Source: Muribaculaceae bacterium (lineage in GTDB: Bacteria; Bacteroidota; Bacteroidia; Bacteroidales; Muribaculaceae). Taken from it: DNA of 24,342 nucleotides. Shown piece by piece: positions 3,084-24,342 of the stretch (positions are counted from its first letter, which is position 1; each line of letters starts with the position of its first letter). A model generated the notes under the pieces. It saw only the letters and a list, made by a program, of their open reading frames with translations, ran no database searches and was not told the origin of the DNA. The stretch spans positions 1 through 24,342 of the forward strand of contig JAGCVR010000006.1 in the NCBI GenBank assembly GCA_017962285.1, written 5' to 3'. Position numbers and translations under genes: made by a program.

Positions 3084-3533
3084 ATGATTGAGTATTTTTC
3101 CGCCAACCTTTGGCAAGTCTGGGCAATTATTTTCTTCATTTGCCTCATCCTTGAGCTTAGCTCGGGCGATTTCTTCATTATATGCTTCTCCATTGGAGCT
3201 CTTTTTGCTGGAATTGCTGCAGGAATTAACCTGAACCTCACGGTACAGGTAATCATTTTTGCCATTGCCTCCACGTTAAGCATCTTCTTCGTGAGGCCGG
3301 TCATGCTCCGCTATTTTCACAAGCCACAGAAAGAGCGCCTCAGCAACGCCGACGCTCTGATAGGGCAGACGGGTAGGGTGAGCCAGGAGATTGAAGCCGG
3401 AGGCTATGGTCGTGTTGCAATCGACGGTGACGACTGGAAGGCACTGAGTGCCGACGGCAGCGCCATTGAGAAAGACGCACGCGTCAGGGTAGTGAACCGC
3501 GAAAGCATCATCATCACAGTGGAACGTATTTAG
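3084..3533 (+). CDS. Short NfeD-like membrane protein
   Basis: 149-residue partner protein of SPFH (stomatin/flotillin-type) membrane proteins, of the short NfeD/YbbJ kind that lacks the ClpP-like protease domain. Two to three hydrophobic segments fill residues about 8-72 (WAIIFFICLILEL, FFIICFSIGALFAG, VQVIIFAIASTLSIFF). A charged linker follows, then a C-terminal OB-fold-type beta domain from about 90 to the end, with the family's typical LIGQTGRVSQEI and GRVAIDGDDWKA segments. The SPFH gene follows 29 bp downstream, the standard pairing for this family. The pair is thought to organise membrane microdomains or protect membrane-protein quality; the exact role here is unknown. Two candidate promoters precede it. 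Confidence 0.85.
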   Translation: MIEYFSANLWQVWAIIFFICLILELSSGDFFIICFSIGALFAGIAAGINLNLTVQVIIFAIASTLSIFFVRPVMLRYFHKPQKERLSNADALIGQTGRVSQEIEAGGYGRVAIDGDDWKALSADGSAIEKDARVRVVNRESIIITVERI

Positions 3534-3562: not shown

Positions 3563-4516
3563 ATGGACATTTCAATAGCTATTCTTGCCGTGCTCGTTAT
3601 CCTCGCCCTTATAGTGGTGAAAATGAGCCTCGTTATCATCCCGCAGTCGGAAACGAAAATCGTGGAGCGCCTTGGTAAATACTATGCCACACTGAAACCG
3701 GGCATCAACATCATCATTCCGTTTATCGACCGCCCCAAGACAATCATCGCAATGACAAACGGCCGGTATCACTACACAAACAGTATTGACCTTCGCGAAC
3801 AGGTTTATGATTTCGACAAGCAGAACGTGATTACCAAAGACAACGTGCAGACACAAATCAATGCTTTGCTCTACTTCCAGATCGTGGATCCGTTCAAGGC
3901 CGTTTATGAAATCAACAATCTGCCCAACGCCATTGAGAAGCTCACGCAGACCACTCTGCGTAACATTATCGGTGAGCTTGAACTTGACGAGACGCTGACA
4001 TCGCGCGACACCATCAACACCAAACTCCGTGCCGTGCTCGACGATGCCACAAACAAGTGGGGAATCAAGGTGAACCGCGTGGAGCTGCAGGACATCACAC
4101 CTCCGCAAAGTGTTCTCCAGGCAATGGAGAAACAAATGCAAGCCGAGCGTAACAAACGTGCCACCATCCTCACCAGCGAAGGTCAGAAAGCAGCCGCAAT
4201 CCTTCAGTCGGAAGGAGAGAAGACAGCCCGTATCAACCGAGCCGAGGCCGACAAGCAGACCGAAATCCTCAAGGAAGAAGGTGAAGCTACGGCACGCATC
4301 CGCAAAGCAGAGGCCGAAGCTGTGGCTATCGATAAAATCACCGAGGCCGTTGGCAAGAGTTCTAACCCCGCCAACTATCTGCTCGCCCAGAAATACATTG
4401 CCATGCTCGAAGAAGTGGCTAAAGGCGACAAGACCAAGACGGTGTATCTGCCTTACGAAGCAACCAATCTCATGGGCAGCATCGGCGGCATAAAAGACCT
4501 CTTCAAAGAAAGTTAA
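3563..4516 (+). CDS. qmcA: SPFH/stomatin-family membrane protein (QmcA-like)
   Basis: 317-residue integral membrane protein of the SPFH (band 7) family. An N-terminal anchor occupies residues about 3-27 (IAILAVLVILALIVVKMSLVI), followed by the typical IPQSETKIVERLGKY entry to the SPFH domain. The domain core includes TKDNVQTQINALLYFQIVDP and the RAVLDDATNKWGIKVNRVELQDITPP signature region. A long alanine/glutamate-rich coiled coil spans about 185-265 (EKQMQAERNKRA and following repeats), and a short C-terminal tail ends LMGSIGGIKDLFKES. The length and architecture match E. coli QmcA and related stomatins. It is paired with the upstream nfeD-like gene. Its 3' part and downstream hairpin recur, decayed, at 12239-12410. 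The symbol is by family resemblance, not proven orthology. Confidence 0.9.
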   Translation: MDISIAILAVLVILALIVVKMSLVIIPQSETKIVERLGKYYATLKPGINIIIPFIDRPKTIIAMTNGRYHYTNSIDLREQVYDFDKQNVITKDNVQTQINALLYFQIVDPFKAVYEINNLPNAIEKLTQTTLRNIIGELELDETLTSRDTINTKLRAVLDDATNKWGIKVNRVELQDITPPQSVLQAMEKQMQAERNKRATILTSEGQKAAAILQSEGEKTARINRAEADKQTEILKEEGEATARIRKAEAEAVAIDKITEAVGKSSNPANYLLAQKYIAMLEEVAKGDKTKTVYLPYEATNLMGSIGGIKDLFKES

Positions 4517-4553
4517 TCAAATCCGTAAAGGACAGAAGAAACTAACCTAAACA

Positions 4554-4598
4554 GAACTCCCTCACCCGTTTGCCACAGCCGGCAGGGTGGGGGAGTTC
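4554..4598 (+). terminator. Strong hairpin after the SPFH gene
   Basis: A 14-bp stem (4554-4567 with 4585-4598; one T-G wobble) encloses a 17-nt loop that contains a further TGCC/GGCA pairing. It begins 38 bp after the SPFH stop. There is no clear T-tract on the plus-strand side, so intrinsic termination is likely but not textbook. The stem recurs unchanged at 12347-12391. Confidence 0.6.
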
Positions 4599-4738
4599 AC
4601 TATATCTCAATATCTGAAAATATTAGTGTCCGCTAAACATTAAAAAACCATCAACATATTAGAAGGTATGCCTCACATTCTGGCACACCTCAGTGCTGAT
4701 CTCATACGATAGATTCTGACAAAAAATAAGACAAAGAC

Positions 4739-4771
4739 ATTGGGATTTTGTCTGGTTTTTATGTACCTTTG
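4739..4771 (+). promoter_or_regulatory. Probable promoter of the folD-hut cassette
   Basis: TACCTTTG (4764-4771) matches the Bacteroidota -7 box. ATTG (4739-4742), 21 nt upstream, supplies a partial -33 box; a better TTTG at 4747-4750 is too close (13 nt). The predicted leader before folD is about 20 nt. No comparable promoter is seen in the 63-bp folD/ftcD gap, so the whole cassette may be read from here. Confidence 0.6.
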
Positions 4772-4797
4772 TATATTAAAAGTTTAAGCCTTTTGTC

Positions 4798-5679
4798 ATG
4801 CAGATTATTGACGGGAAGAAAGTTGCATCTGAAATAAAACTTGAGATATCGGAGAAGGTTCAACAAATCGTTGCTATGGGCGGTCGTCGTCCTAATCTTT
4901 CAGCAATACTTGTGGGCCATGACGGCGGTAGCGAGAGCTATATGATGATGAAGACTCGTGCGTGCGAGGAGTGCGGTTTTGAGTCGGCTCTGATACGCAT
5001 GGAACCTGATGTAACTCAAGCAGAACTTATAGCAAAGATTGACGAGTTGAATAAAGACGAAAGTGTTGATGGCTTTATTATCCAACTTCCATTGCCTAAA
5101 CACATAGATGAGCAGGCAGTAATTGAAGCTATTGACTATCGCAAAGATGCAGATGGTTTTCATCCAATAAATGTTGGCCGCATGGCCCTGGGGCTTCCAT
5201 GTTTCAAGCCAGCCACACCATCGGGTGTGATGTTGCTTCTTGAACGTTATGGCATTGCCACCAGCGGCAAACACTGCGTAATTCTGGGTCGCAGCAATAT
5301 TGTGGGCAAACCTCTGGCAAATATGCTCATCCAGAAAGCATATCCCGGCAACTGCACTGTGACTGTGTGCCATAGTGCGACGCCAAATATCAAGGAACTA
5401 ACCCTTCAAGCCGACATACTTATTTCGGCATTAGGCTGCCCGGGTTTCGTTACCGAAGATATGGTCAAGGAAGGTGCGGTGGTGATTGATGTGGGTACAA
5501 CTCGAGTACCCGACTCGACCCGCGAGCGCGGCTGGCGATTGTGTGGCGATGTGGATTATAAAAATGTGTCGCCGCATTGCAGCTACATTACTCCCGTGCC
5601 AGGCGGAGTGGGACCTGTGACGACAGTTGCACTTATGCTCAACACCCTGCTTGCCGCCACTAATGGGCATCGTGAGTAG
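4798..5679 (+). CDS. folD: Bifunctional methylene-THF dehydrogenase / methenyl-THF cyclohydrolase
   Basis: Cytoplasmic folate enzyme interconverting 5,10-methylene-, 5,10-methenyl- and 10-formyl-tetrahydrofolate. Its 293 residues are usual for FolD. The active-site segment [15 protein letters not shown] supplies the conserved tyrosine and the catalytic lysine (YxxxK). The signatures [22 protein letters not shown], the cofactor loop [14 protein letters not shown], and [12 protein letters not shown] near the C-terminus are all present. It stands first in the histidine-degradation cassette, 63 bp before the ftcD fusion. This suits its chemistry: the cyclodeaminase there releases 5,10-methenyl-THF, which FolD passes to the one-carbon pool. 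Whether a second folD exists elsewhere in the genome cannot be seen. Confidence 0.96.
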
Positions 5680-5742
5680 CAGGAACGATTAACTAAAAAC
5701 AAAAATACTAATCAAAAACCTATTAATACTTATAGAAACAAC

Positions 5743-7434
5743 ATGAACCGACTGATTGAATGCGTGCCTAATTTTAGCGAGGGTCGCAACATCGAAATCA
5801 TTAACCAAATAACCGATACAATAAACAAGTCGAAAGGTGTAAAGTTGCTTGATGTTGACCCGGGTGAAGCTACCAACCGCACTGTGGTGACATTTGTGGG
5901 CAGCCCCGAAGCCGTGGTTGAAACGGCATTCCAGGCAGTAAAGCGTGCCGGCGAGCTGATTGATATGCGTCAGCACCACGGAGCTCACCCGCGTATGGGC
6001 GCTACCGATGTGTGTCCACTCATCCCCATTTCGGGCATTACCCTCGAGGAGTGCGCCGATCTCGCAAGGAAACTTGCCGAGCGCATTGCCACCGAAGCTG
6101 GAATTCCGTGCTATTGCTACGAAGCTGCAGCATTTACCCCCGAGCGTCGCAACCTGGCGGTGTGCCGTGAGGGCGAGTATGAAGCACTTGCCGAGAAACT
6201 GGTTTCAGAGACAGGTAAACCCGATTTCGGTGCCAGGCCACTCGACGAGCAGGTGGCACGCACTGGTTGCACGGCTGTGGGCGCACGCGACTTCCTCATT
6301 GCAACAAACTTCAATCTTAACACCACCAGCACCCGCCGCGCCAACGCTATAGCATTTGACGTGCGCGAGAAAGGTCGCCCGGTGCGTGAGGGCAATTCCA
6401 TCACAGGTAAACCAATGAAGGATGAGAATGGCGAAATCATAATGCGTCCGGGTACACTTAAGGGCACTAAGGCAATAGGGTGGTACATCGGTGAGTACAA
6501 AATAGCCCAAGTGTCGATGAACATCACTGACATCAACGCAACGCCGTTGCACGTTGCTTTCGATGAAGTGTGCCGCTGTGCCCAGAACCGCGGAATACGC
6601 GTCACAGGCACCGAAATCGTAGGACTCTTGCCAAAACGCTGCCTTATCGATGCCGGCAAATACTTCCTCGAGAAGCAGCATCGCTCCACAGGTATCCCGG
6701 AGGCCGACATTATTAATATAGCAATCCACTCGCTTGGACTCGACGACCTCAAGCCCTTTGACCCAAAGGAGAAAGTGATTGAGTACATGATTGAGGATAA
6801 CAGCGCCAAGAAACTCGTAGACTTCACTGTGAGCGAGTTTGCCAATGAGACTTCGCGCGAATCGCCTGCTCCTGGTGGTGGCACAATCTCGGCATATATG
6901 GGAGCACTGGGTGCAGCGTTGGGCACAATGGTTGCCAACCTGTCGAGCCACAAGCCAGGCTGGGACGACCGCTGGCAAGAATTCAGCGTATGGGCCGACA
7001 AGGGGCAGGATATTGCCAAAGAACTTATGCTTCTTGTGGACGAAGACACCGAGGCGTTCAACCGCATAATGACTGCATTTGGCATGCCAAAGAAGACCGA
7101 CGAGGACAAGGCTGCACGCAGTGCGGCAATCCAAGCCGCCACTCTCTATGCCGCACAAGTGCCATTAAGGACGATGAAAGAGTCGTTCAAGGTGTTTGAG
7201 TTGTGCCGTGCCATGGTTATAGAAGGCAATCCCAATAGCGTGAGCGACGCAGGTGTGGGAGTTTTGGCAGCACGGGCAGCAGTGCTTGGCGCTGGCATGA
7301 ATGTGAAGATTAATGCCGGTTCGCTCAAAGACCGCGAGACAGCCGACGCTCTCATCGCCGAGGCCAATGAACTTATAGCACGAGCCAACGCCGAGGAAGC
7401 TGAGATTACCAAAATCGTAGAAACAAAGCTTTAA
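5743..7434 (+). CDS. ftcD: Glutamate formiminotransferase / formimidoyl-THF cyclodeaminase fusion
   Basis: Two-domain enzyme for the last steps of histidine degradation. The N-terminal formiminotransferase (about 1-340) moves the formimino group from formiminoglutamate to THF, giving glutamate. The C-terminal cyclodeaminase (about 355-563) converts 5-formimino-THF to 5,10-methenyl-THF and ammonia. Visible signatures are ECVPNFSEGR at the N-terminus, HHGAHPRMGATDVCP with the catalytic-type histidine, GARDFLIATNFNLN, and in the second domain SPAPGGGTISAYMGALGAAL. The 563 residues match the fused form known from animals and from Bacteroidota, in contrast to separate bacterial proteins. It lies 13 bp upstream of hutU. 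No hutG or hutF was found, so this fusion is the only route to glutamate encoded here. Confidence 0.96.
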   Translation: MNRLIECVPNFSEGRNIEIINQITDTINKSKGVKLLDVDPGEATNRTVVTFVGSPEAVVETAFQAVKRAGELIDMRQHHGAHPRMGATDVCPLIPISGITLEECADLARKLAERIATEAGIPCYCYEAAAFTPERRNLAVCREGEYEALAEKLVSETGKPDFGARPLDEQVARTGCTAVGARDFLIATNFNLNTTSTRRANAIAFDVREKGRPVREGNSITGKPMKDENGEIIMRPGTLKGTKAIGWYIGEYKIAQVSMNITDINATPLHVAFDEVCRCAQNRGIRVTGTEIVGLLPKRCLIDAGKYFLEKQHRSTGIPEADIINIAIHSLGLDDLKPFDPKEKVIEYMIEDNSAKKLVDFTVSEFANETSRESPAPGGGTISAYMGALGAALGTMVANLSSHKPGWDDRWQEFSVWADKGQDIAKELMLLVDEDTEAFNRIMTAFGMPKKTDEDKAARSAAIQAATLYAAQVPLRTMKESFKVFELCRAMVIEGNPNSVSDAGVGVLAARAAVLGAGMNVKINAGSLKDRETADALIAEANELIARANAEEAEITKIVETKL

Positions 7435-7447
7435 AACCATTATAGCC

Positions 7448-9454
7448 ATGACCAAAGAAGAATTTATTGCCGACATTAGGGCTGGAATACCAGACGTTCT
7501 TCCTGAACCTATGCCCTATGACAACGACATAAACCATGCTCCTAAACGTAAAGACATACTCTCGCCCGAAGAGAAGAAACTTGCCCTTCGCAACGCTCTT
7601 CGCTACTTCCCGCCTAAGCATCATGCCGCACTCATCCCCGAATTCAGCAACGAACTTGAGAAATATGGCAGAATATACATGTATCGCTTGCGTCCACGCT
7701 ATGAGATGAAGGCCCGACACATCGATGATTACCCTCATCGTTCGCGTCAGGCTGCTGCAATCATGATGATGATTCAAAACAACCTCGATAAGGCTGTGGC
7801 ACAGCATCCACATGAACTTATCACCTATGGCGGCAACGGCGCCGTATTCCAGAACTGGGCACAATACCGCCTGGTAATGAAATACTTGAGCGAGATGACC
7901 GATGAGCAAACACTTGTGATGTATAGCGGCCATCCGCTAGGCTTGTTCCCCTCGCACCGCAATGCTCCGCGAGTGGTGGTGACCAATGGCATGGTAATTC
8001 CAAACTACAGTAAGCCCGACGACTGGGAACGTGGCAACGCACTGGGTGTTACACAATATGGCCAGATGACTGCCGGCTCATATATGTATATTGGTCCGCA
8101 AGGTATCGTGCACGGCACAACTATCACTGTGCTTAATGCTGCTCGCAAAGTGATGGGCGATGAGCGTGAGAAACGCATCCCGCTGTTTGTAACCGCTGGT
8201 CTTGGTGGCATGAGCGGTGCGCAACCCAAAGCAGGAAATATTGCCGGTGTAGTGAGTGTTATCGCCGAAATCAATCCTCTCGCGGCGCGTAAGCGTTACG
8301 ATCAGGGTTGGGTTGACGAGCTGCATGAGAATCTCGACGAACTGATTCCTGCCATCCGCAAGGCTGTGGAAGAGAAACGCGTGGTGTCGATGGCGTATGT
8401 GGGCAATGTAGTTGACTTGTGGGAACGTCTTGCCGAAGAGAAAATCCATGTTGACCTCGGCAGCGACCAGACTTCGCTTCACAACCCGTATGCAGGCGGC
8501 TATTATCCTGTGGGTTATTCACTCGAGGAATCGAAGCAGATGATGGCTGAGGAGCCCGACCGCTTCAAGGCGTGCGTGTTTGAGTCGCTTCGCCGTCAAG
8601 TGGCAGCAATCAACCGACTTACTGCCGACGGCATGTACTTCTTCGACTATGGCAATGCATTCATGCTGATGGCCAGCCGTGCTGGTGCCGATATCATGAA
8701 AGATGAGCATCATTTCCGATATCCGAGTTATGTTCAGGACATCATGGGACCAATGTTCTTCGACTATGGTTTCGGTCCGTTCCGTTGGGTATGCACATCG
8801 TGCGACCCGCATGACCTTGAAGTGACCGACCGCCTCGCTGCCGAAGTTCTAAGCGAAATGATGAACCATGTGACCGACGATATAAAAGGACAGCTTGCCG
8901 ACAATCTGCACTGGATTCGTGAAGCAGGCAAGAACCACCTTGTGGTGGGGTCTCAAGCTCGCATTCTGTATGCCGACTGCGAGGGTCGCACAAAGATTGC
9001 GCTTGCCTTCAACGACGCTATTCGCCGCGGCGAAATCTCAGCCCCAGTGGTTTTAGGCCGTGACCACCACGATGTGAGCGGCACCGACTCACCTTTCCGC
9101 GAAACGAGCAACATTTACGACGGCAGCCAGTTTTGCGCCGACATGGCAGTGCAAAATGTCATAGGCGACGCATTCCGTGGCGCAACTTGGGTAAGCATTC
9201 ACAATGGTGGTGGAGTTGGTTGGGGAGACGTAATAAATGGAGGTTTTGGTATGGTAATCGATGGCAGCGAAGACTCCGAAAGGCACATTCGCCAAATGCT
9301 GCTTTGGGATGTAAACAACGGCATCGCGCGTCGCTCATGGGCACGCAATGGCGGTTCTATCGACGCCATCAAGCGTGAGATGGAGCGCACACCAGGCCTC
9401 GTGGTCACAATTCCCAACCTCATCGACGACACACTCCTCAACGAACAACGTTGA
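7448..9454 (+). CDS. hutU: Urocanate hydratase, long form
   Basis: NAD-dependent urocanase converting urocanate to imidazolone propionate. At 668 residues it belongs to the long class resembling the vertebrate enzyme, not the roughly 555-residue Pseudomonas type. Recognisable segments are YGRIYMYRLRP near residue 80, ITYGGNGAVFQNWAQY, VVTNGMVIPNYS, YIGPQGIVHGT, the nucleotide-binding TAGLGGMSGAQPKA, DLGSDQTSLHNPYAGGYYPVG, and FRWVCTSCDPHDL with the conserved active-site-region cysteine. The C-terminus includes VLGRDHHDVSGTDSPFRET and SIHNGGGVGWGDVINGGFG. It lies between ftcD (13 bp) and hutH (40 bp) in one operon. The assignment is secure. Confidence 0.97.
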   Translation: MTKEEFIADIRAGIPDVLPEPMPYDNDINHAPKRKDILSPEEKKLALRNALRYFPPKHHAALIPEFSNELEKYGRIYMYRLRPRYEMKARHIDDYPHRSRQAAAIMMMIQNNLDKAVAQHPHELITYGGNGAVFQNWAQYRLVMKYLSEMTDEQTLVMYSGHPLGLFPSHRNAPRVVVTNGMVIPNYSKPDDWERGNALGVTQYGQMTAGSYMYIGPQGIVHGTTITVLNAARKVMGDEREKRIPLFVTAGLGGMSGAQPKAGNIAGVVSVIAEINPLAARKRYDQGWVDELHENLDELIPAIRKAVEEKRVVSMAYVGNVVDLWERLAEEKIHVDLGSDQTSLHNPYAGGYYPVGYSLEESKQMMAEEPDRFKACVFESLRRQVAAINRLTADGMYFFDYGNAFMLMASRAGADIMKDEHHFRYPSYVQDIMGPMFFDYGFGPFRWVCTSCDPHDLEVTDRLAAEVLSEMMNHVTDDIKGQLADNLHWIREAGKNHLVVGSQARILYADCEGRTKIALAFNDAIRRGEISAPVVLGRDHHDVSGTDSPFRETSNIYDGSQFCADMAVQNVIGDAFRGATWVSIHNGGGVGWGDVINGGFGMVIDGSEDSERHIRQMLLWDVNNGIARRSWARNGGSIDAIKREMERTPGLVVTIPNLIDDTLLNEQR

Positions 9455-9494
9455 AGACACAATTAAGTATAACCTCATAAATTGCATAAACCCA

Positions 9495-10970
9495 ATGACA
9501 CATTTTATCAGTGCCGCGCACCTTACCATAGAACGCATAGGCGAAATCATAGAGAAAAACATTAAACTTGAGCTGAGCGACGACGCAAAGCTACGCATAA
9601 TCCGTTGCCGCGAGTACCTTGATAAGCACATCGCTGGCAGCGACGAACCTGTTTATGGCGTGACTACGGGGTTTGGCTCATTGTGCAACGTGAAAGTTGA
9701 CCATGACCAGCTCTCGCAACTGCAAACAAACCTCATGATGTCTCATGCTTGCGGTGTGGGAGAGCGAGTTCCTAACAATATAGTGCGCATAATGCTTTTG
9801 CTCAAGATTCAGTCGCTGAGCTATGGATATTCGGGCTGCAAGCTCGATACAGCGGAGCGTCTTATTGATTTTTTCAACGAGGGCGTAATCCCCGTGGTGT
9901 ACCGTCAGGGTTCGCTGGGTGCTTCGGGCGACCTGGTGCCGCTGGCTCACATGTGCCTGCCGCTGTTAGGCCTTGGCGAGGTTGAATATGAAGGGAAAGT
10001 GATGACTGCTGCCCACTTGCACAAACTCAAAGGTTGGAAACCGATTGAGTTGGCAAGTAAAGAAGGCCTGGCTCTGCTCAATGGCACACAGAACATGAAT
10101 TCGTTTGCCGTGTGGGCGATGCTTCAGGCCGAGCGTTTGAGCGATTGGGCCGATAAGATTGCCGCTATGTCACTCGATGCCTATGACGGTCGCATCGAGC
10201 CGTTTACTGAGGCTGTTCACCTTGCGCGTCCGCATAAGGGTCAACTTGAGACAGCTGCCCACATGAAAGCGCTTTTGGCTGAAAGCGAACTTATCGCATC
10301 GCCAAAGATGCATGTACAAGACCCATATTCGTTCCGCTGCGTTCCTCAAGTACACGGAACTGTGAAGGACACCATAAGATACATAAAAACTGTTATCGAC
10401 ACCGAAATCAACAGTGCGACCGATAATCCCACAGTGTGTCCCGATGACGACCTCATCATAAGTGCCGGAAACTTCCACGGCGAACCAATCGCTATGCCCA
10501 TGGACTTCCTCGCCATTGCCTTGAGCGAACTTGCCAATATAAGCGAACGCCGTATTTATCGCCTTGTGTCGGGCACTCGCGGACTGCCCAACTTCCTAGT
10601 TGCCAATCCGGGTCTCAACAGCGGATTTATGATTACTCAATACACTGCGGCAAGCATTGTAAGCCTCAACAAGTCGCTTGCCACGCCATCAAGCCTCGAC
10701 AGCATTCCCTCGTGCCAAGACCAGGAAGACCATGTGAGCATGGGAGCAAATGCCGCGATTAAGCTCTATCAAGTGGTGCTCAACACCGAGCGAGTGCTTG
10801 CAATCGAGCTGTTTAACGCTGCTCAAGCCCTCGAATTCCGCTTCCCCAAGAAATCGTCTCCAGTAATCATGAAGATACATGAGGACTTCCGCCGTGAAGT
10901 GCCATTCATCAGCGACGATGTGGTGATGTATCCATATATTGAGAAAGCTATTCAGTTCTTGCGCCGATGA
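9495..10970 (+). CDS. hutH: Histidine ammonia-lyase
   Basis: First enzyme of histidine catabolism, releasing ammonia to give urocanate. The 491 residues start at MTHFISAAHLTIERIG. An earlier in-frame ATG at 9348 would lie inside hutU and add unrelated sequence, so 9495 is preferred. The Ala-Ser-Gly triad that forms the MIO electrophile is present in GSLGASGDLVPLAHM. YGVTTGFGSLCNV, LLNGTQNMNS, TDNPTVCPDDD, the FHGEP segment and SCQDQEDHVSMG are further family signatures. It follows hutU by 40 bp, and its TGA overlaps the hutI start (ATGA), indicating coupled translation. Confidence 0.97.
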   Translation: MTHFISAAHLTIERIGEIIEKNIKLELSDDAKLRIIRCREYLDKHIAGSDEPVYGVTTGFGSLCNVKVDHDQLSQLQTNLMMSHACGVGERVPNNIVRIMLLLKIQSLSYGYSGCKLDTAERLIDFFNEGVIPVVYRQGSLGASGDLVPLAHMCLPLLGLGEVEYEGKVMTAAHLHKLKGWKPIELASKEGLALLNGTQNMNSFAVWAMLQAERLSDWADKIAAMSLDAYDGRIEPFTEAVHLARPHKGQLETAAHMKALLAESELIASPKMHVQDPYSFRCVPQVHGTVKDTIRYIKTVIDTEINSATDNPTVCPDDDLIISAGNFHGEPIAMPMDFLAIALSELANISERRIYRLVSGTRGLPNFLVANPGLNSGFMITQYTAASIVSLNKSLATPSSLDSIPSCQDQEDHVSMGANAAIKLYQVVLNTERVLAIELFNAAQALEFRFPKKSSPVIMKIHEDFRREVPFISDDVVMYPYIEKAIQFLRR

Positions 10971-12205
10971 AACTTTTAATAACTAATATTGCCACCCTTG
11001 CCGGCATCGACAGCGGAGGTATGCTTAAAAAATGCGGTGCCGAAATGGCGCAGTTCGACTCCATAAGCGACGCCTGGCTTCTTGTCGAAGACAGGATTAT
11101 TACCGATTTTGACAGCAGGGAAAACCGCAAAGAGCCCACCGATGCAGATCGTGTATTTGACGCAAATTGGGGCACAGTAATGCCAAGTTGGTGTGACTCA
11201 CACACACATATTGTGTATGCCGGAAGCCGCGAGCAGGAGTTTGTGGACAAAATCAACGGTCTGTCGTATGCCGAAATAGCAAAACGCGGCGGAGGCATAC
11301 TCAACAGCGCCGACCGCCTGCACGAGCTGACTGAGCAACAACTCTATGAGCAGGCCTCAGAGCGACTGCACGAGGTTGTCGCCAAAGGTACAGGTGCAAT
11401 TGAGATAAAGAGCGGTTATGGGCTCAACACCCATGACGAGCTCAAGATGCTCCGCGTCATAGCACGTATGCAGGAGAGTTCCCGAATGCGCATCGTTTCT
11501 ACTTTCCTCGGTGCTCACGCTGTGGGGAGAAGATATGCCGGTCGCCAAAGCAAGTATGTGGACCTTGTGGTCAACGAGATGATACCCGCTGTGGCCGCCG
11601 AAGGACTTGCCGACTTTGTCGATGTGTTCTGCGACCAAGGTTTCTTTACTCCCGAAGAGACATCTCGCATTCTTGAGGCAGGAGCGAAATATGGAATGCG
11701 AGGCAAAATACACGGGCAGGAACTCGCTCCGTCGGGTGGCGTAGAGGTGGCTGTGAAACATAATGCGCTATCGGTCGACCATCTTGAGAGTATGACCGAT
11801 GCCGACATTGCTTTGCTGCGAGGCACTAACACAATTCCCACCGCACTTCCTGGCACATCATTCTTCCTCAACTTGCCATTCGCGCCGGCTCGCAAGATGA
11901 TAGAAAACGGCCTGCCTGTGGCAATAGCCAGCGACTACAACCCGGGCTCCACGCCCAGCGGAGATATGAAATTTGTGGTTTCGCTCGCCTGCATCAAGAT
12001 GAGGCTACAGCCAGCCGAAGCATTCAACGCTGCCACAATTAACGGTGCTGCGGCCATGGGCCTCAGTGCTGATTTCGGAAGCATCGCCCCTGGGAAGGTC
12101 GCAAACTTCTTCATAACCAAACCCATCCCTGACATCAACTTCATCCCTTACGCCTACACCACCCCAATAATCGCACACGCCTTCCTCGCCGGCGAAGAAC
12201 AATAG
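10967..12205 (+). CDS. hutI: Imidazolonepropionase
   Basis: Amidohydrolase-superfamily metalloenzyme that opens the imidazolone ring to give formiminoglutamate, the FtcD substrate. The 412 residues show the metal-binding DSHTHIVYAG (HxH), EIKSGYGL, FLGAHAV, KIHGQELAPSGG, VDHLE, and the metal/catalytic ASDYNPGSTPSGDM. The C-terminal amidohydrolase segment ATINGAAAMGL...GSIAPGKVANFFI is intact. It overlaps hutH by 4 bp and is the last gene of the cassette. Directly beyond it lie a small hairpin and a decayed copy of the SPFH gene end. No regulator such as HutC is present. Confidence 0.96.
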   Translation: MKLLITNIATLAGIDSGGMLKKCGAEMAQFDSISDAWLLVEDRIITDFDSRENRKEPTDADRVFDANWGTVMPSWCDSHTHIVYAGSREQEFVDKINGLSYAEIAKRGGGILNSADRLHELTEQQLYEQASERLHEVVAKGTGAIEIKSGYGLNTHDELKMLRVIARMQESSRMRIVSTFLGAHAVGRRYAGRQSKYVDLVVNEMIPAVAAEGLADFVDVFCDQGFFTPEETSRILEAGAKYGMRGKIHGQELAPSGGVEVAVKHNALSVDHLESMTDADIALLRGTNTIPTALPGTSFFLNLPFAPARKMIENGLPVAIASDYNPGSTPSGDMKFVVSLACIKMRLQPAEAFNAATINGAAAMGLSADFGSIAPGKVANFFITKPIPDINFIPYAYTTPIIAHAFLAGEEQ

Positions 12206-12216
12206 GAAAACCGTTT

Positions 12217-12238
12217 CTCTGCTGTTGTGACAGCAGAG
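12217..12238 (+). terminator. Hairpin downstream of hutI
   Basis: CTCTGCTG (12217-12224) and CAGCAGAG (12231-12238) form a perfect 8-bp stem with a 6-nt loop, beginning 12 bp after the hutI stop. No T-tract follows, so termination is only suggested by position. The hairpin ends exactly where similarity to the SPFH gene begins, so it may instead mark the joint of the cassette. Confidence 0.4.
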
Positions 12239-12410
12239 CAGACCACACTGCGTAACATTATCGGTGAGCTGGAATCGGCGTCTTAAAAGACCTCTTCAAA
12301 GAAAGTTAATCAACTCCGTAAAGGACAGGAAAAACAAACCCAAACAGAACTCCCTCACCCTCTTGCCACAGCCGGCAGGGTGGGGGAGTTCGCTATATCT
12401 CAATATTTGA
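12239..12410 (+). pseudogene. Decayed copy of the SPFH gene 3' part plus its downstream hairpin
   Basis: Two blocks match the intact SPFH locus. Block 1 (12239-12273 and the base following) matches 3947-3982 with 2 mismatches in 36. Block 2 (12274-12410) matches 4482-4618 with 11 mismatches in 137 and no gaps, by hand alignment. About 499 bp of the gene between the blocks (3983-4481) are missing, and the joined frame stops at once (E-L-E-S-A-S-stop), so nothing functional is encoded. Block 2 spans the end of the coding sequence, its stop and the 14-bp hairpin. The copy lies in the same orientation as the original, making it a direct repeat around the hut cassette. Confidence 0.85.
12347..12391 (-). 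terminator. Hairpin terminator between convergent hutI and the AAA+ gene
   Basis: The stem (12347-12360 with 12378-12391) is identical to the one after the SPFH gene. Read on the minus strand it is followed by a T-rich run (TGTTTGGGTTTGTTTTT). It therefore suits termination of the AAA+ ATPase gene, whose stop is 28 bp away, better than termination of hutI. Confidence 0.6.
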
Positions 12411-12418
12411 ATCAGAGT

Positions 12419-14158
12419 CTATAACTCTTCAATATCATCGGGAGCAATGGTTCGCAACATCTCCTCCGTTATCGGGCTTATACCTGACAGGCGGTTGGCC
12501 TGATTCTGGACCATTTTTTCAAATAAGTTTCTCACATAACGACCGTTCCCGAATTTTCTGTTCCGTCTCTGATGAGCATCGGCAATTATCTTGCAAGCCT
12601 TAACCTCTGCATCTTCCGACATTTCATAATCACTGCTCTTTAAGTTGCTTTTCAGTATTTGCAGCAATTCCTCATCACTATAGTCGGGGAATTCAATATA
12701 GTTATTAAAGCGCGATTGCAAACCTGGATTTGAGTCAATAAAGGTTTTAATTTCATCGGTATATCCAGCTAAAATCACAACAAGCCTGTTTCTGTCATCT
12801 TCCATTCGCTTTAACAAAGTCGCTATAGCCTCCGGTCCAAAATCTTCCTTTGCCTTGTTTGCCAACGTGTATGCCTCATCAATGAAAAGAATTCCATCTA
12901 ATGCACGGTCAATCACCTTGTTGGTCTTAACCGCTGTCTGCCCTACATATTCCGCCACAAGCCCAGAGCGATCAGTCTCAACAAGATGACCCTTTTTCAC
13001 TATTCCCAAGTCACGATAAATCCCTGCAAGCAGCCTCGCAACTGTCGTTTTTCCTGTTCCTGGATTTCCTGTGAACACACAATGATAGCTGATTGGCGCC
13101 GTTTTAAGACCTTTTCCCGCACGTTCTTTCTGTATCTTGATAAAATTCACAAGTGTTGTAACAGATTCTTTAACCGTCTGCAATCCTATCAACTTTTGCA
13201 ACTCATCCATAGGATTTGACAATGGATAGGAAATCTTGTTCTCCTCATTTTTATCCTGTGAATCTTCCACATAATCACGGGCATCATCGGGAGCGTTAAT
13301 CGCCTTGACTATTGAAGCCGTTTTCATACACCGCACCAGCAAAGAAAGCACTGACTTCTCTTTGTCTGTAACTTTATCATCAATCTTTGCGATTATGGAG
13401 AACAATTTGTATAGATGTGAAATATAACGATTCTTTAATTGCTCGTCGAACGACTCCGCTACATAAGCAATAACAAGCACTTCGGGAGACATGGTAACTT
13501 TACAGTAAGTTCTCATGCTGCGCATACTTTCCAACAAAGTTGGGTTGAATTCACGCATAATATCGTAAGAATACGGTTCTTCCCTGTTTTTCCCGACATC
13601 TAATATTTTGGCAAGTGTAACGTGCAGACATAGCTGTTCAGGCGACTGCACCGAATCGTCATATCCCATCTTATCGAACAAATAGCACAGGTCCGAGAAT
13701 ATCATATACTTAAACGTGAGTTTTCTCTTCTCCTCTATGCTTTCTGTTCCACTTGAGTTTTCGACATTTACAACCGAAAAAGCGTGATCAACAAATCTCT
13801 CATTTTCTACCATCTCTTCAGAGAAATACACCAAGCGATTGATATACCTCAACACCTTCCCATATTTCTCTTCTGTCAAGACAGAAAATAACATGTCGGG
13901 ACTGGTCGGCACATCTAAGCCCCAGCTTTCATCATTTTCCGAAACATCATTCAAACCATTACTGTATGAATAATTACGTTGCGTTTCATCATTAGTGCCA
14001 GAATCTTTATTACTACTCGTTAATATCATGAGTCCTATAAGAAATGCACTCACCACCAGCAGGGCTATACCCAACACGATATAACCATTTATCAGTGCTA
14101 CTGCCATTAGAGAAAGTGCTACAACTACAAAAAGAAACAAACATCCTTCTTTATTCAT
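12419..14158 (-). CDS. Membrane-anchored CbxX/SpoVK-type AAA+ ATPase
   Basis: 579 residues if started at MNKEGCLFLF (14158). An upstream in-frame ATG (14212) would place 18 residues before the membrane segment and is less likely. Two hydrophobic helices (about 6-24 and 27-47) anchor the N-terminus, followed by a polar, asparagine/serine-rich linker. A helical middle region includes LFSIIAKIDDKVTDKEKSV (about 252-270), resembling a TerB-like acidic metal-binding repeat. The AAA+ module follows: GLQTVKE, Walker A GNPGTGKT (364-371), Walker B ILFIDEA (423-429), sensor-1 region ILAGYTDE, and the arginine-finger region GLQSRF. The AAA part resembles CbxX/CfxQ, SpoVK and EccA remodelling ATPases. 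The client is unknown. It is transcribed alone and convergent with hutI. Confidence 0.85.
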   Translation of the reverse strand: MNKEGCLFLFVVVALSLMAVALINGYIVLGIALLVVSAFLIGLMILTSSNKDSGTNDETQRNYSYSNGLNDVSENDESWGLDVPTSPDMLFSVLTEEKYGKVLRYINRLVYFSEEMVENERFVDHAFSVVNVENSSGTESIEEKRKLTFKYMIFSDLCYLFDKMGYDDSVQSPEQLCLHVTLAKILDVGKNREEPYSYDIMREFNPTLLESMRSMRTYCKVTMSPEVLVIAYVAESFDEQLKNRYISHLYKLFSIIAKIDDKVTDKEKSVLSLLVRCMKTASIVKAINAPDDARDYVEDSQDKNEENKISYPLSNPMDELQKLIGLQTVKESVTTLVNFIKIQKERAGKGLKTAPISYHCVFTGNPGTGKTTVARLLAGIYRDLGIVKKGHLVETDRSGLVAEYVGQTAVKTNKVIDRALDGILFIDEAYTLANKAKEDFGPEAIATLLKRMEDDRNRLVVILAGYTDEIKTFIDSNPGLQSRFNNYIEFPDYSDEELLQILKSNLKSSDYEMSEDAEVKACKIIADAHQRRNRKFGNGRYVRNLFEKMVQNQANRLSGISPITEEMLRTIAPDDIEEL

Positions 14159-14204
14159 AATAATGCAAAAAATAACTGAAACACTATGTTCTGCATAACA
14201 AACA

Positions 14205-14233
14205 GACCTCATGCGCAGCGATTGCGTGAGGTC
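14205..14233 (-). terminator. Terminator of the tRNA-Tyr gene
   Basis: GACCTCA (14205-14211) pairs with TGAGGTC (14227-14233). An inner CGCA/TGCG stem (14214-14217 with 14223-14226) continues it after a 2-nt bulge. On the minus strand it begins 11 bp after the tRNA 3' end and is followed by TGTTTGTT, fitting an intrinsic terminator. Confidence 0.6.
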
Positions 14234-14244
14234 CGGCGTTTATG

Positions 14245-14327
14245 TGGGTAGAGATGGATTCGAACCACCGAAGCGATGACGCAGCAGATTTACAGTCTGC
14301 CCCATTTGGCCACTCTGGAATCTACCC
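14245..14327 (-). tRNA. tRNA-Tyr (anticodon GTA)
   Basis: 83-nt class II tRNA with a long variable arm. The acceptor stem GGGTAGA pairs fully with TCTACCC at the other end. The anticodon loop CTGTAAA gives GTA (tyrosine). The T arm contains GGTTCGAATCC, and the D arm CAGAGTGGCCAAATGG is typical. The discriminator base is A and no CCA is encoded. It has its own promoter upstream and a terminator hairpin downstream. Confidence 0.95.
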
Positions 14328-14346
14328 AAAGTCCATTAGGACACTG

Positions 14347-14378
14347 CAAATTTAATGCTTTTTTCCATAATCCGCAAC
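14347..14378 (-). promoter_or_regulatory. Promoter of tRNA-Tyr
   Basis: Minus-strand GTTG (14375-14378), a 20-nt spacer and TAAATTTG (14347-14354) match the Bacteroidota -33/-7 pattern. Transcription would begin roughly 13 nt before the mature tRNA 5' end. The same pair of boxes with the same spacing stands before the DUF4153-like gene. Confidence 0.65.
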
Positions 14379-21156: not shown

Positions 21157-22581
21157 TTATGCAAGTCGTTTCAGCAGTTCGATGAGTACACACCAGATGT
21201 CCTCAATGGTGGAAATCTCCACGCGCTCACTGGTGGAGTGGGGCTCCACAATGCGGGGACCGATGCTGGCTATCTGAATGCCAGGGTAGTGCTCCACAAA
21301 GAACCCCGCCTCGAGCACAAAGTGCATGGCAACCATGCGAGGCCGCCAGCCAAGCACATCCAGAAATGTATCGGACGTCAGCTGCAGGAATGGCGACTGC
21401 TGATTCTCCTGCCATGCTGGAGCCGACATCACAGTCTCGCTCTTGGCACCAACAGCGGCGAACACGTCGGCAATCCTGCGGCTGAGCGCCTCCATCTCGG
21501 TGTCGGTGAAACTGCGCGTATGGGTAGAGATCAAGATGCTGTAGTCTTCAGTCATAACGCGACCCACATTGTTCGAGGTCTCCACCGTGTCTTTCATTGT
21601 GTCGCTCATTTTCACAACGCCTTGCGGAATTTGTTCCAGACATGTAATCAAAGCATCGGTGGCCTCACGGTTAATTACTGTTCCCTGCGGTTCGCAATAT
21701 TCTATGACACAGCGCATTCCCGGGTCGCTTTCAGCAAAATGTCCGTGCAGCCAGTTATTCATCCTGTCTTCGAGATTCTTGATGAATTCCACCCCTTAAG
21801 GCGAAACCCGGATGATGGCTTCGGCCGATGAAGCAATGGAGGCATTTGCCTCGCCGATATTGAGCGATGCCACGTCGAAGTCACACTCTTTCCGAATGGC
21901 AGTCAAAGCCGTAAGCATAGCCACAACTGCACTGCATCGTCCCTTGTTTATATCAACTCCTGAATGGCCTCCCAATCCACCTTCGAAGCGGATGCTGAAC
22001 CAGCAGCCTTTCCTGGCTTGCCTGCGCTCCACTGGGATGCGGTGGAACTGAAGACAGGCACCTGCCGCTCCGGTAGTGATAGTGTCGTAGTCCTCAGAAT
22101 CAAGGTTGATGACCTTACGGCCCTTCAGGAAATCCTGGCTCAACTGCGAAGCGCCCGACATACCGTCCTCCTCGTTTGTTGTTGTCATTACCTCAATAGG
22201 CCCATGCACTATTTCATCGCTCTCAAGTACAGCCAGAGCCATCGACAGTCCTATACCGTTGTCGGCACCGAGCGAAGTGCCGCGGGCTTTCATCCATCCG
22301 TTCTCCACATACGCCTCAATAGGTGAGTTGAGTGGGTCGTCCATGCCCACACACACCATGTCCATATGATTGAGCAACACAATTGGCTCAGCATCTTCAT
22401 GACCCGGAGTAGCAGGTTTGCTGATTACGACACAGTTCTCAGCATCGCGCTTATACGGCAGATGCAGATGCTCGGCAAATCGGCACAGATAGTCGGCAAC
22501 TCGCTCCTCGTGGTGCGACGGCCGTGGAATCTGGTTAAGTTCCTTGAATATCTGAAACACGCGTTCTGTAGTAGGTCTCAT
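21157..22581 (-). pseudogene. pepD: Cytosolic dipeptidase PepD interrupted by an in-frame TAA
   Basis: M20-family aminoacyl-histidine dipeptidase (cytosol nonspecific dipeptidase), a zinc enzyme that cleaves Xaa-His and other dipeptides. The N-terminal part (261 codons) holds LLNHMDMVCV, SLGADNGIGLSMAL, TTNEEDGMSGA and NLDSED, which supply the metal and catalytic residues. The C-terminal part (212 codons counting from the same frame) ends with the metal-ligand-bearing GPRIVEPHSTSERVEI. Both parts are in one reading frame, split only by TAA at 21796-21798, between IIRVSP and GVEFIKNLED. Together they give about 474 codons, close to the normal 480-490. A GTG lies 3 nt beyond the stop and could allow reinitiation. 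This is a nonsense mutation, a sequencing error or, less likely, readthrough. The break falls inside the lid/dimerisation domain. Confidence 0.88.
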
Positions 22582-22876: not shown

Positions 22877-24342
22877 ATGAACACGACAATTGAAGACAGA
22901 CGGACACAGACGGTGGTATCGCTGTTCCGTCGGTGCGTCAAGGAACATGCGGACAAAACCGCTGTCATATATAACGATAAACACTTCACCTATGCGCAGG
23001 TGGATGCCATCAGCGACCGGCTGGCAGCCCATATCGCCTCGCTGGGACTTGGCCGTGAGGATGTGGTGAGCATACTTATCCCGCGGTGTGAGTGGATGGC
23101 GATAGCCTCGCTCGGCGTGCTGAAGGCAGGATGCGCCTATCAGCCACTCGACCCCACTTACCCGAAAGAGCGCCTGAACTTCATGGTGAAAGATGCAGAC
23201 GCAAAGCTGCTGATTGCCGATGAGTCGCTGCGCGACCTCGTGGATGAATATCAGGGCAACGTGCTGTTGACGAGCAGCCTGGAGCAACTGCCACCGGCAG
23301 AAAAACTGCCAGAAGGACCGGAATCCGACAGTCGGTTTATTCTGCTCTACACCAGCGGTTCCACAGGGGTGCCGAAAGGGTGTATGCTGACGCACAGGAA
23401 TCTGGTAACGTTCTGCGACTGGTACCGGCGTTACTACGACCTTAATCCAGGCGACCATGTGGCAGCCTATGCCAGCTATGGCTTCGACGCCTGCATGATG
23501 GACCTGTACTCGGCGCTTACCACTGGCGCTACGGTTTATATAATCCCGGAAGAAATCCGTCTGGACCTGATTGCCCTGAACGATTATTTCGAAGCCAACC
23601 ACGTTACCCATGCCTTTATGACTACGCAGGTGGGATGCCAGTTTGCCGAGATGGACAACCACTCGCTGCGGCATCTTTCCGTGGGTGGTGAAAGTTTCAT
23701 TCCCGTGGAGCCACCCAAAAACTTCCAGTTGTATAATGTCTATGGACCTACAGAATGTACCATCTTCACTACCGCATATCCCGTCAGGCAGTTTGAAAAG
23801 AATGCCCCAATAGGCAAACCGCTCGATTCGTTCCGCCTCTATGTTGTGGACCAGGATGGGAAGCAAGTGGAGAACGGACAACAGGGCGAGCTGTGGATCA
23901 GCGGTCCGCAGGTGGCTCGCGGCTACCTGAACCGCCCGGATCAGAACGCCAAGGCATTTACACCGAACCCATTCTGCCAGGAACCCGACTATGACCGCGT
24001 TTACCACACCGGCGACATCGTGCGGTGGCTGCCCGACGGAAATCTGCAGTTCGTGGGTCGCCGCGACGGTCAGGTGAAGATTCGCGGATTCCGCATCGAG
24101 ATGCGAGAGGTGGAAGGCGTCATCAAACAGTTCCCCGGCATCAAGGACGTAACCGTTCAGGCTTTCGACGAAAATGACGGAGAAGGGTCGGGGGGCGGCA
24201 AGTTTATCGCTGCTTACATCGTGAGCGACGAACAGATAGACATTGAAGCGCTGAACAACTTCATTCTGGAGCGCAAACCACCCTACATGGTCCCGGCTGC
24301 GACAATGCAGATTGATGCCATTCCATTGAACCAGAACCAGAA
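22877..24342 (+). CDS. NRPS-type amino acid adenylation domain protein, runs off window
   Basis: 488 codons are visible and the frame is open at the right edge. This is an ANL-superfamily adenylation domain that activates an amino acid as aminoacyl-AMP, normally to load an adjacent carrier protein. Core motifs appear in order: FTYAQVDAISDRL (A1 region), LKAGCAYQPLDPTYP (A2), LYTSGSTGVPKGCMLTH (A3, about 155-172), YGFDACMMDLY (A4, about 200), NVYGPTECTI (A5, about 287), GELWISGPQVARGYLNRP (A6), YHTGDIVRWLPDGNLQFVGR (A7) and DGQVKIRGFRIEMREVE (A8). The window ends inside A10 (IPLNQNQ). No condensation domain precedes it, so it is either an initiation module or a stand-alone NRPS-like enzyme. 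The aspartate of FDA fits an alpha-amino acid substrate, which I cannot name. It diverges from pepD-hdc. Confidence 0.9.
   Translation, partial: MNTTIEDRRTQTVVSLFRRCVKEHADKTAVIYNDKHFTYAQVDAISDRLAAHIASLGLGREDVVSILIPRCEWMAIASLGVLKAGCAYQPLDPTYPKERLNFMVKDADAKLLIADESLRDLVDEYQGNVLLTSSLEQLPPAEKLPEGPESDSRFILLYTSGSTGVPKGCMLTHRNLVTFCDWYRRYYDLNPGDHVAAYASYGFDACMMDLYSALTTGATVYIIPEEIRLDLIALNDYFEANHVTHAFMTTQVGCQFAEMDNHSLRHLSVGGESFIPVEPPKNFQLYNVYGPTECTIFTTAYPVRQFEKNAPIGKPLDSFRLYVVDQDGKQVENGQQGELWISGPQVARGYLNRPDQNAKAFTPNPFCQEPDYDRVYHTGDIVRWLPDGNLQFVGRRDGQVKIRGFRIEMREVEGVIKQFPGIKDVTVQAFDENDGEGSGGGKFIAAYIVSDEQIDIEALNNFILERKPPYMVPAATMQIDAIPLNQNQ

Follow-up and report, generated by a model that had tools for sequence, protein, structure and literature searches.

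The 24,342-bp contig C180 of a Muribaculaceae draft genome (subsequently designated the window) carries a complete histidine-degradation cassette, folD-ftcD-hutU-hutH-hutI, between an intact gene of the SPFH/Band 7 family and a second, shortened copy of the end of that gene. We favor, with a probability of about 0.6, the insertion of a genus-resident hut unit at SPFH, which duplicated the SPFH tail and most likely proceeded by one crossover. The genome (1.48 Mb, 224 contigs) is 61% complete. It was compared within a set of 101 genomes of the genus, i.e. the genome itself and 100 congeners, among which G038 is the nearest relative. Genes were assigned using Pfam and NCBIfam profiles.

A duplicated SPFH tail brackets the hut genes

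A repeat search of the window recovered two pairs of direct repeats, one of 138 nt (4481-4618 versus 12274-12411, 92% identity) and one of 37 nt (3946-3982 versus 12238-12274, 95%). Since the two blocks abut at 12274, the right copy corresponds to positions 3946-4618 (673 nt) minus 499 nt, which leaves 174 nt with 13 differences, i.e. 92.5% identity overall. A preliminary description of the window had reported both blocks in this orientation with coordinates correct to about one base, and had placed folD-ftcD-hutU-hutH-hutI between the two copies; the self-comparison that it proposed bears this out. The relevant features are as follows.

3563-4516, + strand: intact SPFH/Band 7 gene, 317 aa (PF01145, 7.5e-39; 95-96% identity to G038)
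3946-3982, + strand: first SPFH stretch recurring in the second copy (95% to 12238-12274)
4481-4618, + strand: SPFH end, stop codon and terminator-like hairpin, recurring in the second copy (92% to 12274-12411)
4554-4598, + strand: terminator-like hairpin 3' of SPFH (folded stretch 4540-4625: -33.8 kcal/mol, z -6.3)
12213-12243, + strand: small hairpin 3' of hutI, whose 3' foot extends into the SPFH fragment
12238-12411, + strand: second SPFH copy, 5'-truncated, with 499 nt gone at 12274; it ends 7 bp before the stop codon of an AAA+ gene
12347-12391, no strand assigned: retained hairpin, flanked by hutI and the AAA+ gene in convergent orientation (none of the 9 non-coding differences lies in its 36 paired positions)

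The internal deletion of the right copy is not a multiple of three, and its joint has an overlap of 1 nt (a shared A). As the 3' foot of the small hutI hairpin enters the SPFH fragment, the right-hand joint can be located there.

When the right fragment was compared with its own genome (61% complete), it matched the SPFH locus only (E 2.0e-52 and 5.7e-10), and no further copy was found elsewhere. The intact SPFH end including the hairpin, used as query, matched in 64 of the 101 genomes, the own genome among them. In the relatives they fall in the coding end of SPFH, except for two weak ones (34 and 40 nt); none of the 100 congeners has the hairpin part. Within these 101 genomes, the own one being 61% complete, a dispersed repeat, which the preliminary description had named as a possible refutation, is thereby rejected.

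No SPFH-coding piece was detected downstream of SPFH in any of 115 other SPFH loci (some contigs are counted twice; 100 of the 116 loci have at least 2 kb downstream). A lone 23-nt match in locus L164 lies upstream. Likewise, 22 other hut loci, several of which are nearly devoid of DNA on one side, yielded only left-right matches of 20-39 nt, in L075, L078 and L082; general mobility of hut with flanking repeats of its own was thus not seen at these 22 loci. Given that no comparable scar was seen downstream of SPFH at the 115 SPFH loci or around the 22 hut loci, the duplication looks like a single event.

Repeats of other kinds were encountered behind SPFH in three loci. L257 and L259 carry repeat arrays with a spacing of 108 nt downstream of SPFH. 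In L129 (RUG10667), two open reading frames (ORFs; 363 and 386 aa) behind SPFH are bracketed by repeats at 11034-11120 and 13939-14018, which contain the near-palindrome GGGACGTGCCGTGGCACGTCC.

Gene order at SPFH and hut loci of relatives

Of 576 named SPFH loci the best 80 were inspected, 72 of them with at least 2 kb and 52 with at least 8 kb of downstream DNA. Within the downstream DNA present, ftcD, hutU, hutH, hutI or the AAA+ gene stood beside SPFH in 0 of these 80, and a single locus had folD alone nearby. The same genes were also missing beside SPFH at all 20 loci from the genus, several of which extend little downstream, and G038 has an interval of 955 bp instead. Judged by these gene orders, hut is not an ancestral neighbor of nfeD-SPFH, as the preliminary description had proposed.

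HutH itself is common in the genus: 80 of the 101 genomes encode it at 66% identity or more (a few partially), away from SPFH, and two more possess only a relative of 36-38% identity. The intact five-gene unit was found elsewhere in four congeners (G092, G013, G012 and G029), and in the last three it lies between genes for an S58-family peptidase and apbE; homologues of neither were found in the window's own genome (61% complete). DNA similarity to the complete cassettes of relatives begins at or within folD and stops within about 10 bases of the hutI stop codon. A TAnnTTTG box, which we take to be the Bacteroidota-type -7 promoter motif, precedes folD by 34-37 nt in all five complete cassettes, the window included. 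folD belongs to the hut unit, as a trait of this genus and not of every hut operon. The cassette consists of the following elements.

4764-4771, + strand: candidate -7 box TACCTTTG, Bacteroidota-type, 34 nt before folD
4798-5679, + strand: folD (PF02882, PF00763)
5743-7434, + strand: ftcD, formiminotransferase-cyclodeaminase (TIGR02024 above cut-off; PF07837, PF02971, PF04961)
7448-9454, + strand: hutU, urocanate hydratase (TIGR01228 above cut-off)
9480-10970, + strand: hutH, histidine ammonia-lyase (TIGR01225 above cut-off)
10967-12205, + strand: hutI, imidazolonepropionase (TIGR01224 above cut-off)

For hutH the start at 9480 was chosen within an ORF that opens at 9348; relatives align from residue 1-8 of the chosen start. 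Both Pfam domains of FolD score far above cut-off, and its best NCBIfam equivalog falls slightly under its own cut-off (492.8 versus 507). With the HutH, HutU, HutI and FtcD families united in one cluster, all above their TIGRFAM cut-offs, the conversion of histidine to glutamate via formiminotransferase is predicted. By its gene content, the cassette is an ordinary histidine-degradation operon at an unusual position. As its genes look native to the genus, we regard it as a change in gene order and no new system.

To the left, the window contains mnmG, ybeY and nfeD, followed by SPFH. To the right of SPFH, the five cassette genes are all encoded on the + strand, followed by the AAA+ gene, tRNA-Tyr and further genes on the - strand. 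The immediate neighbors are listed below.

3084-3533, + strand: nfeD, left neighbor of SPFH (PF01957; conserved, as it matches in 80 of the 80 named SPFH loci)
12419-14212, - strand: AAA+ ATPase with a SpoVK/CbbX-like C-terminal domain scoring below the cut-offs of those families (guanine-cytosine (GC) content 40%)
14244-14327, - strand: tRNA-Tyr(GTA), which closes the interval behind SPFH on the right, as in G038

In G038 the gene next to SPFH is of the DNA-alkylation-repair type (DNA_alkylation); tRNA-Tyr comes after it, on the same strand as in the window, the distance from SPFH to the tRNA being the 955 bp mentioned above. Window positions 14244-14365, which cover the tRNA plus some 38 nt ahead of it, align with the tRNA-Tyr region of G038 at 91% identity over 125 columns. 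Of 87 distinct loci that extend 3 kb or more beyond SPFH, five including the window show SPFH followed by tRNA-Tyr on the - strand; besides the window and G038 these are G046, L108 and L117, with distances of 4701, 1341 and 2015 bp, respectively. Across 82 loci, window included, the genes that come first behind SPFH (counting only those of 130 aa or more) represent 34 families. These arrangements suggest that the stretch from SPFH to tRNA-Tyr is an inherited interval of changing content in part of the group, and that hut would be the content in this lineage.

The AAA+ gene is the compositional outlier of the window, and 31 bp separate its start from the tRNA-Tyr 3' end. Within the genus it has only partial relatives or relatives of 39-61% identity, and among the 120 matches listed for its protein none beyond its own cluster exceeds 62% identity, over 41-62% of its length. 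Where the listed homologues (42-62% over 41-62%) bear names, these point to other groups, e.g. Lentisphaeria, Kiritimatiellae, Clostridium and Paenibacillus. Profiles of defence systems applied to four right-hand genes gave weak partial matches for the AAA+ and a helicase gene and none for the other two.

Some further observations concern SPFH loci and the remainder of the window. One to three genes of the CotH-kinase type lie behind SPFH in L035-L038, L042, L045, L046, L048 and L049, mostly with a glycosyltransferase gene next; the L037 copy, the sole one scanned, has a dockerin-like domain as well. At L254-L263 (G042, G050, G092, G099, G080, G030, G063, G011, G001 and G090) no mnmG or ybeY was found beside nfeD-SPFH; SPFH is diverged there (81-85%), yet the mnmG genes of the seven tested are among the closest to that of the window. 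An M20-type dipeptidase gene at 21157-22581 (- strand) is broken into ORFs of 211 and 261 aa and corresponds to a single ORF of 478 aa in G039; a frameshift, decay or a sequencing error are possible readings. At 22877-24342 (+ strand) the start of an AMP-binding (adenylation-type) gene is cut off by the contig end.

Descent and composition of the hut genes

The preliminary description regarded the cassette as an inserted chromosomal island and expected folD and hut gene trees to differ from the species tree. We computed trees for HutH (22 rows), HutI (23), HutU (9) and FtcD (8) as well as for MnmG (28) and SPFH (36). Because rpoB and rplB, considered as species markers, had no match in the own genome, mnmG was used instead. 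The mnmG tree pairs the window with G038 as its sister (100/99), both belonging to a group of 13 rows (97/96). The best HutH tree contains a corresponding group of 14 rows, comprising not quite the same genomes, with support of 24/4. For HutI the mnmG-like grouping was not rejected (p-AU 0.45); G039, G015 and G047 were omitted from this test because their HutI looks exchanged. A grouping of HutH with G012, G013 and G029 was likewise not rejected (p-AU 0.23). The mnmG and SPFH trees themselves conflict on the G042 clade. No supported conflict between hut trees and the marker thus emerged, in a weak test: the trees are compatible with vertical descent and too weak to prove it.

HutH is about 90% identical to that of genomes whose SPFH reaches only 81-86%, which initially hinted at transfer. 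This hint lost its force, since the ranking by mnmG resembles that by HutH and SPFH is the disagreeing marker. For HutI, the search for homologues scored only the 7999 candidates sharing most words; among the 120 matches listed, the nearest has 90% identity and the next, from Muribaculaceae, 87%, and every organism name given is Muribaculaceae. GC content of the hut genes (0.49-0.54) does not deviate from the host, given 0.44-0.51 in the left flank and 0.50-0.54 in six ORFs to the right of the AAA+ gene, which itself has 0.40. In codon usage the hut genes resemble one another slightly more than they resemble the left or right flank; the usage of SPFH, too, is in line with that of hut. The trees (the test being weak), the host-like GC content and the Muribaculaceae homologues hence lend no support to a foreign origin of hut. 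Of the island interpretation, the non-ancestral place is borne out and the foreign origin is left unsupported.

G038, which is 88% complete, lacks hutH and hutU. At this completeness, loss in G038 and gain in the lineage of the window cannot be told apart.

Of note, the HutI proteins encoded at L065, L268 and L269 (G039, G015 and G047) are only 73-76% identical to that of the window, and the HutH proteins of the same loci (partial in G047) reach 90-92%. The HutI of these three genomes groups with that of G046 (100/99), which suggests an exchange of hutI inside the operon there.

Routes to the present arrangement and known parallels

Same-orientation copies of one chromosomal stretch bracket the cassette, as in a Campbell-type insertion. 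For the favored reading, i.e. insertion of a genus-resident hut unit at SPFH, we propose an ancestor resembling G038, in which SPFH would have been followed by a short stretch of variable content and by tRNA-Tyr on the opposite strand. A hut unit with its own promoter and the genes folD-ftcD-hutU-hutH-hutI would then have been joined right behind the SPFH terminator. This joining would have duplicated the 673-nt SPFH tail including the terminator (3946-4618), so that the left SPFH gene remained whole and a tail lacking its 5' part came to lie on the right, beside the AAA+/tRNA-Tyr side. Most likely, a molecule that bore hut together with a trimmed SPFH end would have entered by a single crossover in the SPFH tail. 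Later, the right copy would have lost 499 nt internally and the copies drifted to 92.5% identity, with the hairpin being kept.

The same strong hairpin is predicted for both copies (-33.8 kcal/mol on the left and -34.5 kcal/mol on the right for the stretches folded). An automatic scan for terminator patterns reported neither of them, probably owing to the absence of a T-run. From its position, the retained right hairpin could plausibly act as a two-way terminator shared by the convergent hutI and AAA+ genes. A broader notion, which we regard as improbable, holds that in Muribaculaceae the interval between SPFH and tRNA-Tyr is repeatedly used as a landing site. Whole metabolic units would arrive there with an SPFH tail as homology arm, and the duplicated tail would survive because the convergent pair so created uses its hairpin as shared terminator.

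Several observations weigh against the proposed insertion or parts of it. No donor molecule was seen. The right SPFH copy has four coding differences, of which two are silent; the other two changes occur in none of the 11 relatives alignable there, and plain decay after duplication fits as well as a donor allele. The preliminary description had predicted relatives with SPFH, hairpin and AAA+ gene in direct succession. This order occurs in no congener, and the relatives offer no strictly empty site: the interval of G038 holds another gene in place of AAA+, the AAA+ gene is without a close relative in the genus, and the border held in common is tRNA-Tyr. Moreover, tRNA-Tyr is placed otherwise in three loci (on the + strand in L255, upstream in L258 and L095), and other tRNAs lie near SPFH in 14 of 101 loci. 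As to the hairpin, the nine non-coding differences between the copies avoid all 36 paired positions out of 102 (hypergeometric P = 0.016), in a post hoc test devised after the data had been seen. Since no relative carries the hairpin, its native flank cannot be assigned.

The same anatomy would result if hut had moved behind SPFH by another route, the stretch from 3946, inside SPFH, to just past hutI had undergone a head-to-tail duplication, and the hut genes of its second unit had then been deleted, with only the SPFH tail and the hairpin left over. The differences between the SPFH copies resemble ordinary drift, and illegitimate joints often show short overlaps, as does the internal deletion with its 1 nt. 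Such a tandem duplication, however, demands an extra step, the loss of an entire second hut copy up to a point just bases away from the hairpin, and leaves unexplained why hut is at SPFH at all, where it is found in 0 of the best 80 of the 576 named loci. The data fit both routes; the single crossover needs fewer steps, and we consider the tandem duplication a possible but distinctly less probable origin.

An erroneous assembly join at SPFH, between two strains or between two loci, has to be considered for a draft of 224 contigs and 61% completeness. But the window contains no N and no repeat at the joints other than the SPFH copies, and a misjoin at SPFH should produce one copy, not a full and a shortened one 7.8 kb apart. 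Furthermore, the protein clusters of HutI and AAA+ each list two contigs, the longer of which has 31,357 bases in both cases (24,342 for the window contig), which suggests a second assembly with the HutI and AAA+ genes linked. The 120 SPFH matches listed do not include the window's own contig, which left no means of placing SPFH on the longer contig. An assembly artefact is thus very unlikely. Least credible of all is an island of the classical type, brought in by an integrase, that would have targeted the SPFH 3' end or tRNA-Tyr and left the repeats as its attachment sites: direct repeats of a gene 3' end and an adjacent tRNA gene are typical of such islands and both occur here, with an AAA+ gene of low GC at the 3' side of the tRNA, but none of the five genes between the repeats (folD, ftcD, hutU, hutH, hutI) is an integrase, no stretch of 12 nt or more from the tRNA-Tyr 3' end recurs in the window, and the repeat is long and diverged and not a short identical core.

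The proposed insertion at SPFH amounts to ordinary genome plasticity with an unusually legible scar, left by the relocation of an operon that has neither a transposase nor an integrase next to it. Taken alone, it is a single event known from a single draft genome; with more strains, the site would permit a direct test of how catabolic operons are reshuffled between loci in gut and rumen Bacteroidota. A limited literature search turned up no paper on the arrangement of SPFH, hut and scar.

Compared to the hut/ftcD operons of G092, G013, G012 and G029, the order folD-ftcD-hutU-hutH-hutI is the same, but the window has it between SPFH and tRNA-Tyr, while in G013, G012 and G029 it lies beside apbE and the S58 peptidase gene. 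Homology-facilitated illegitimate recombination could also produce an insert with homology at one end; according to a study in E. coli (PMC3240628), it usually results in a similarly sized deletion, whereas the window shows a duplication. Its joints usually have an overlap of 3-10 bp (PMC3240628), which could be sought in the window only with the sequence that formerly followed hutI. The same study describes E. coli insertions in which 56 of 60 clones gave the product of a polymerase chain reaction marking a duplicated homologous gene end; in 14 sequenced clones the duplicated part measured 109-950 bp, and a single crossover by a circle with a trimmed end was the explanation given (PMC3240628). 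The event in the window differs in being natural and older (7.5% divergence, internal deletion), with no vector and no identified donor. It agrees with these single-crossover integrations in its direct repeats of a gene end, several hundred bp in length and truncated in one copy, and its duplication of 673 bp compares with the 109-950 bp of the E. coli clones (PMC3240628).

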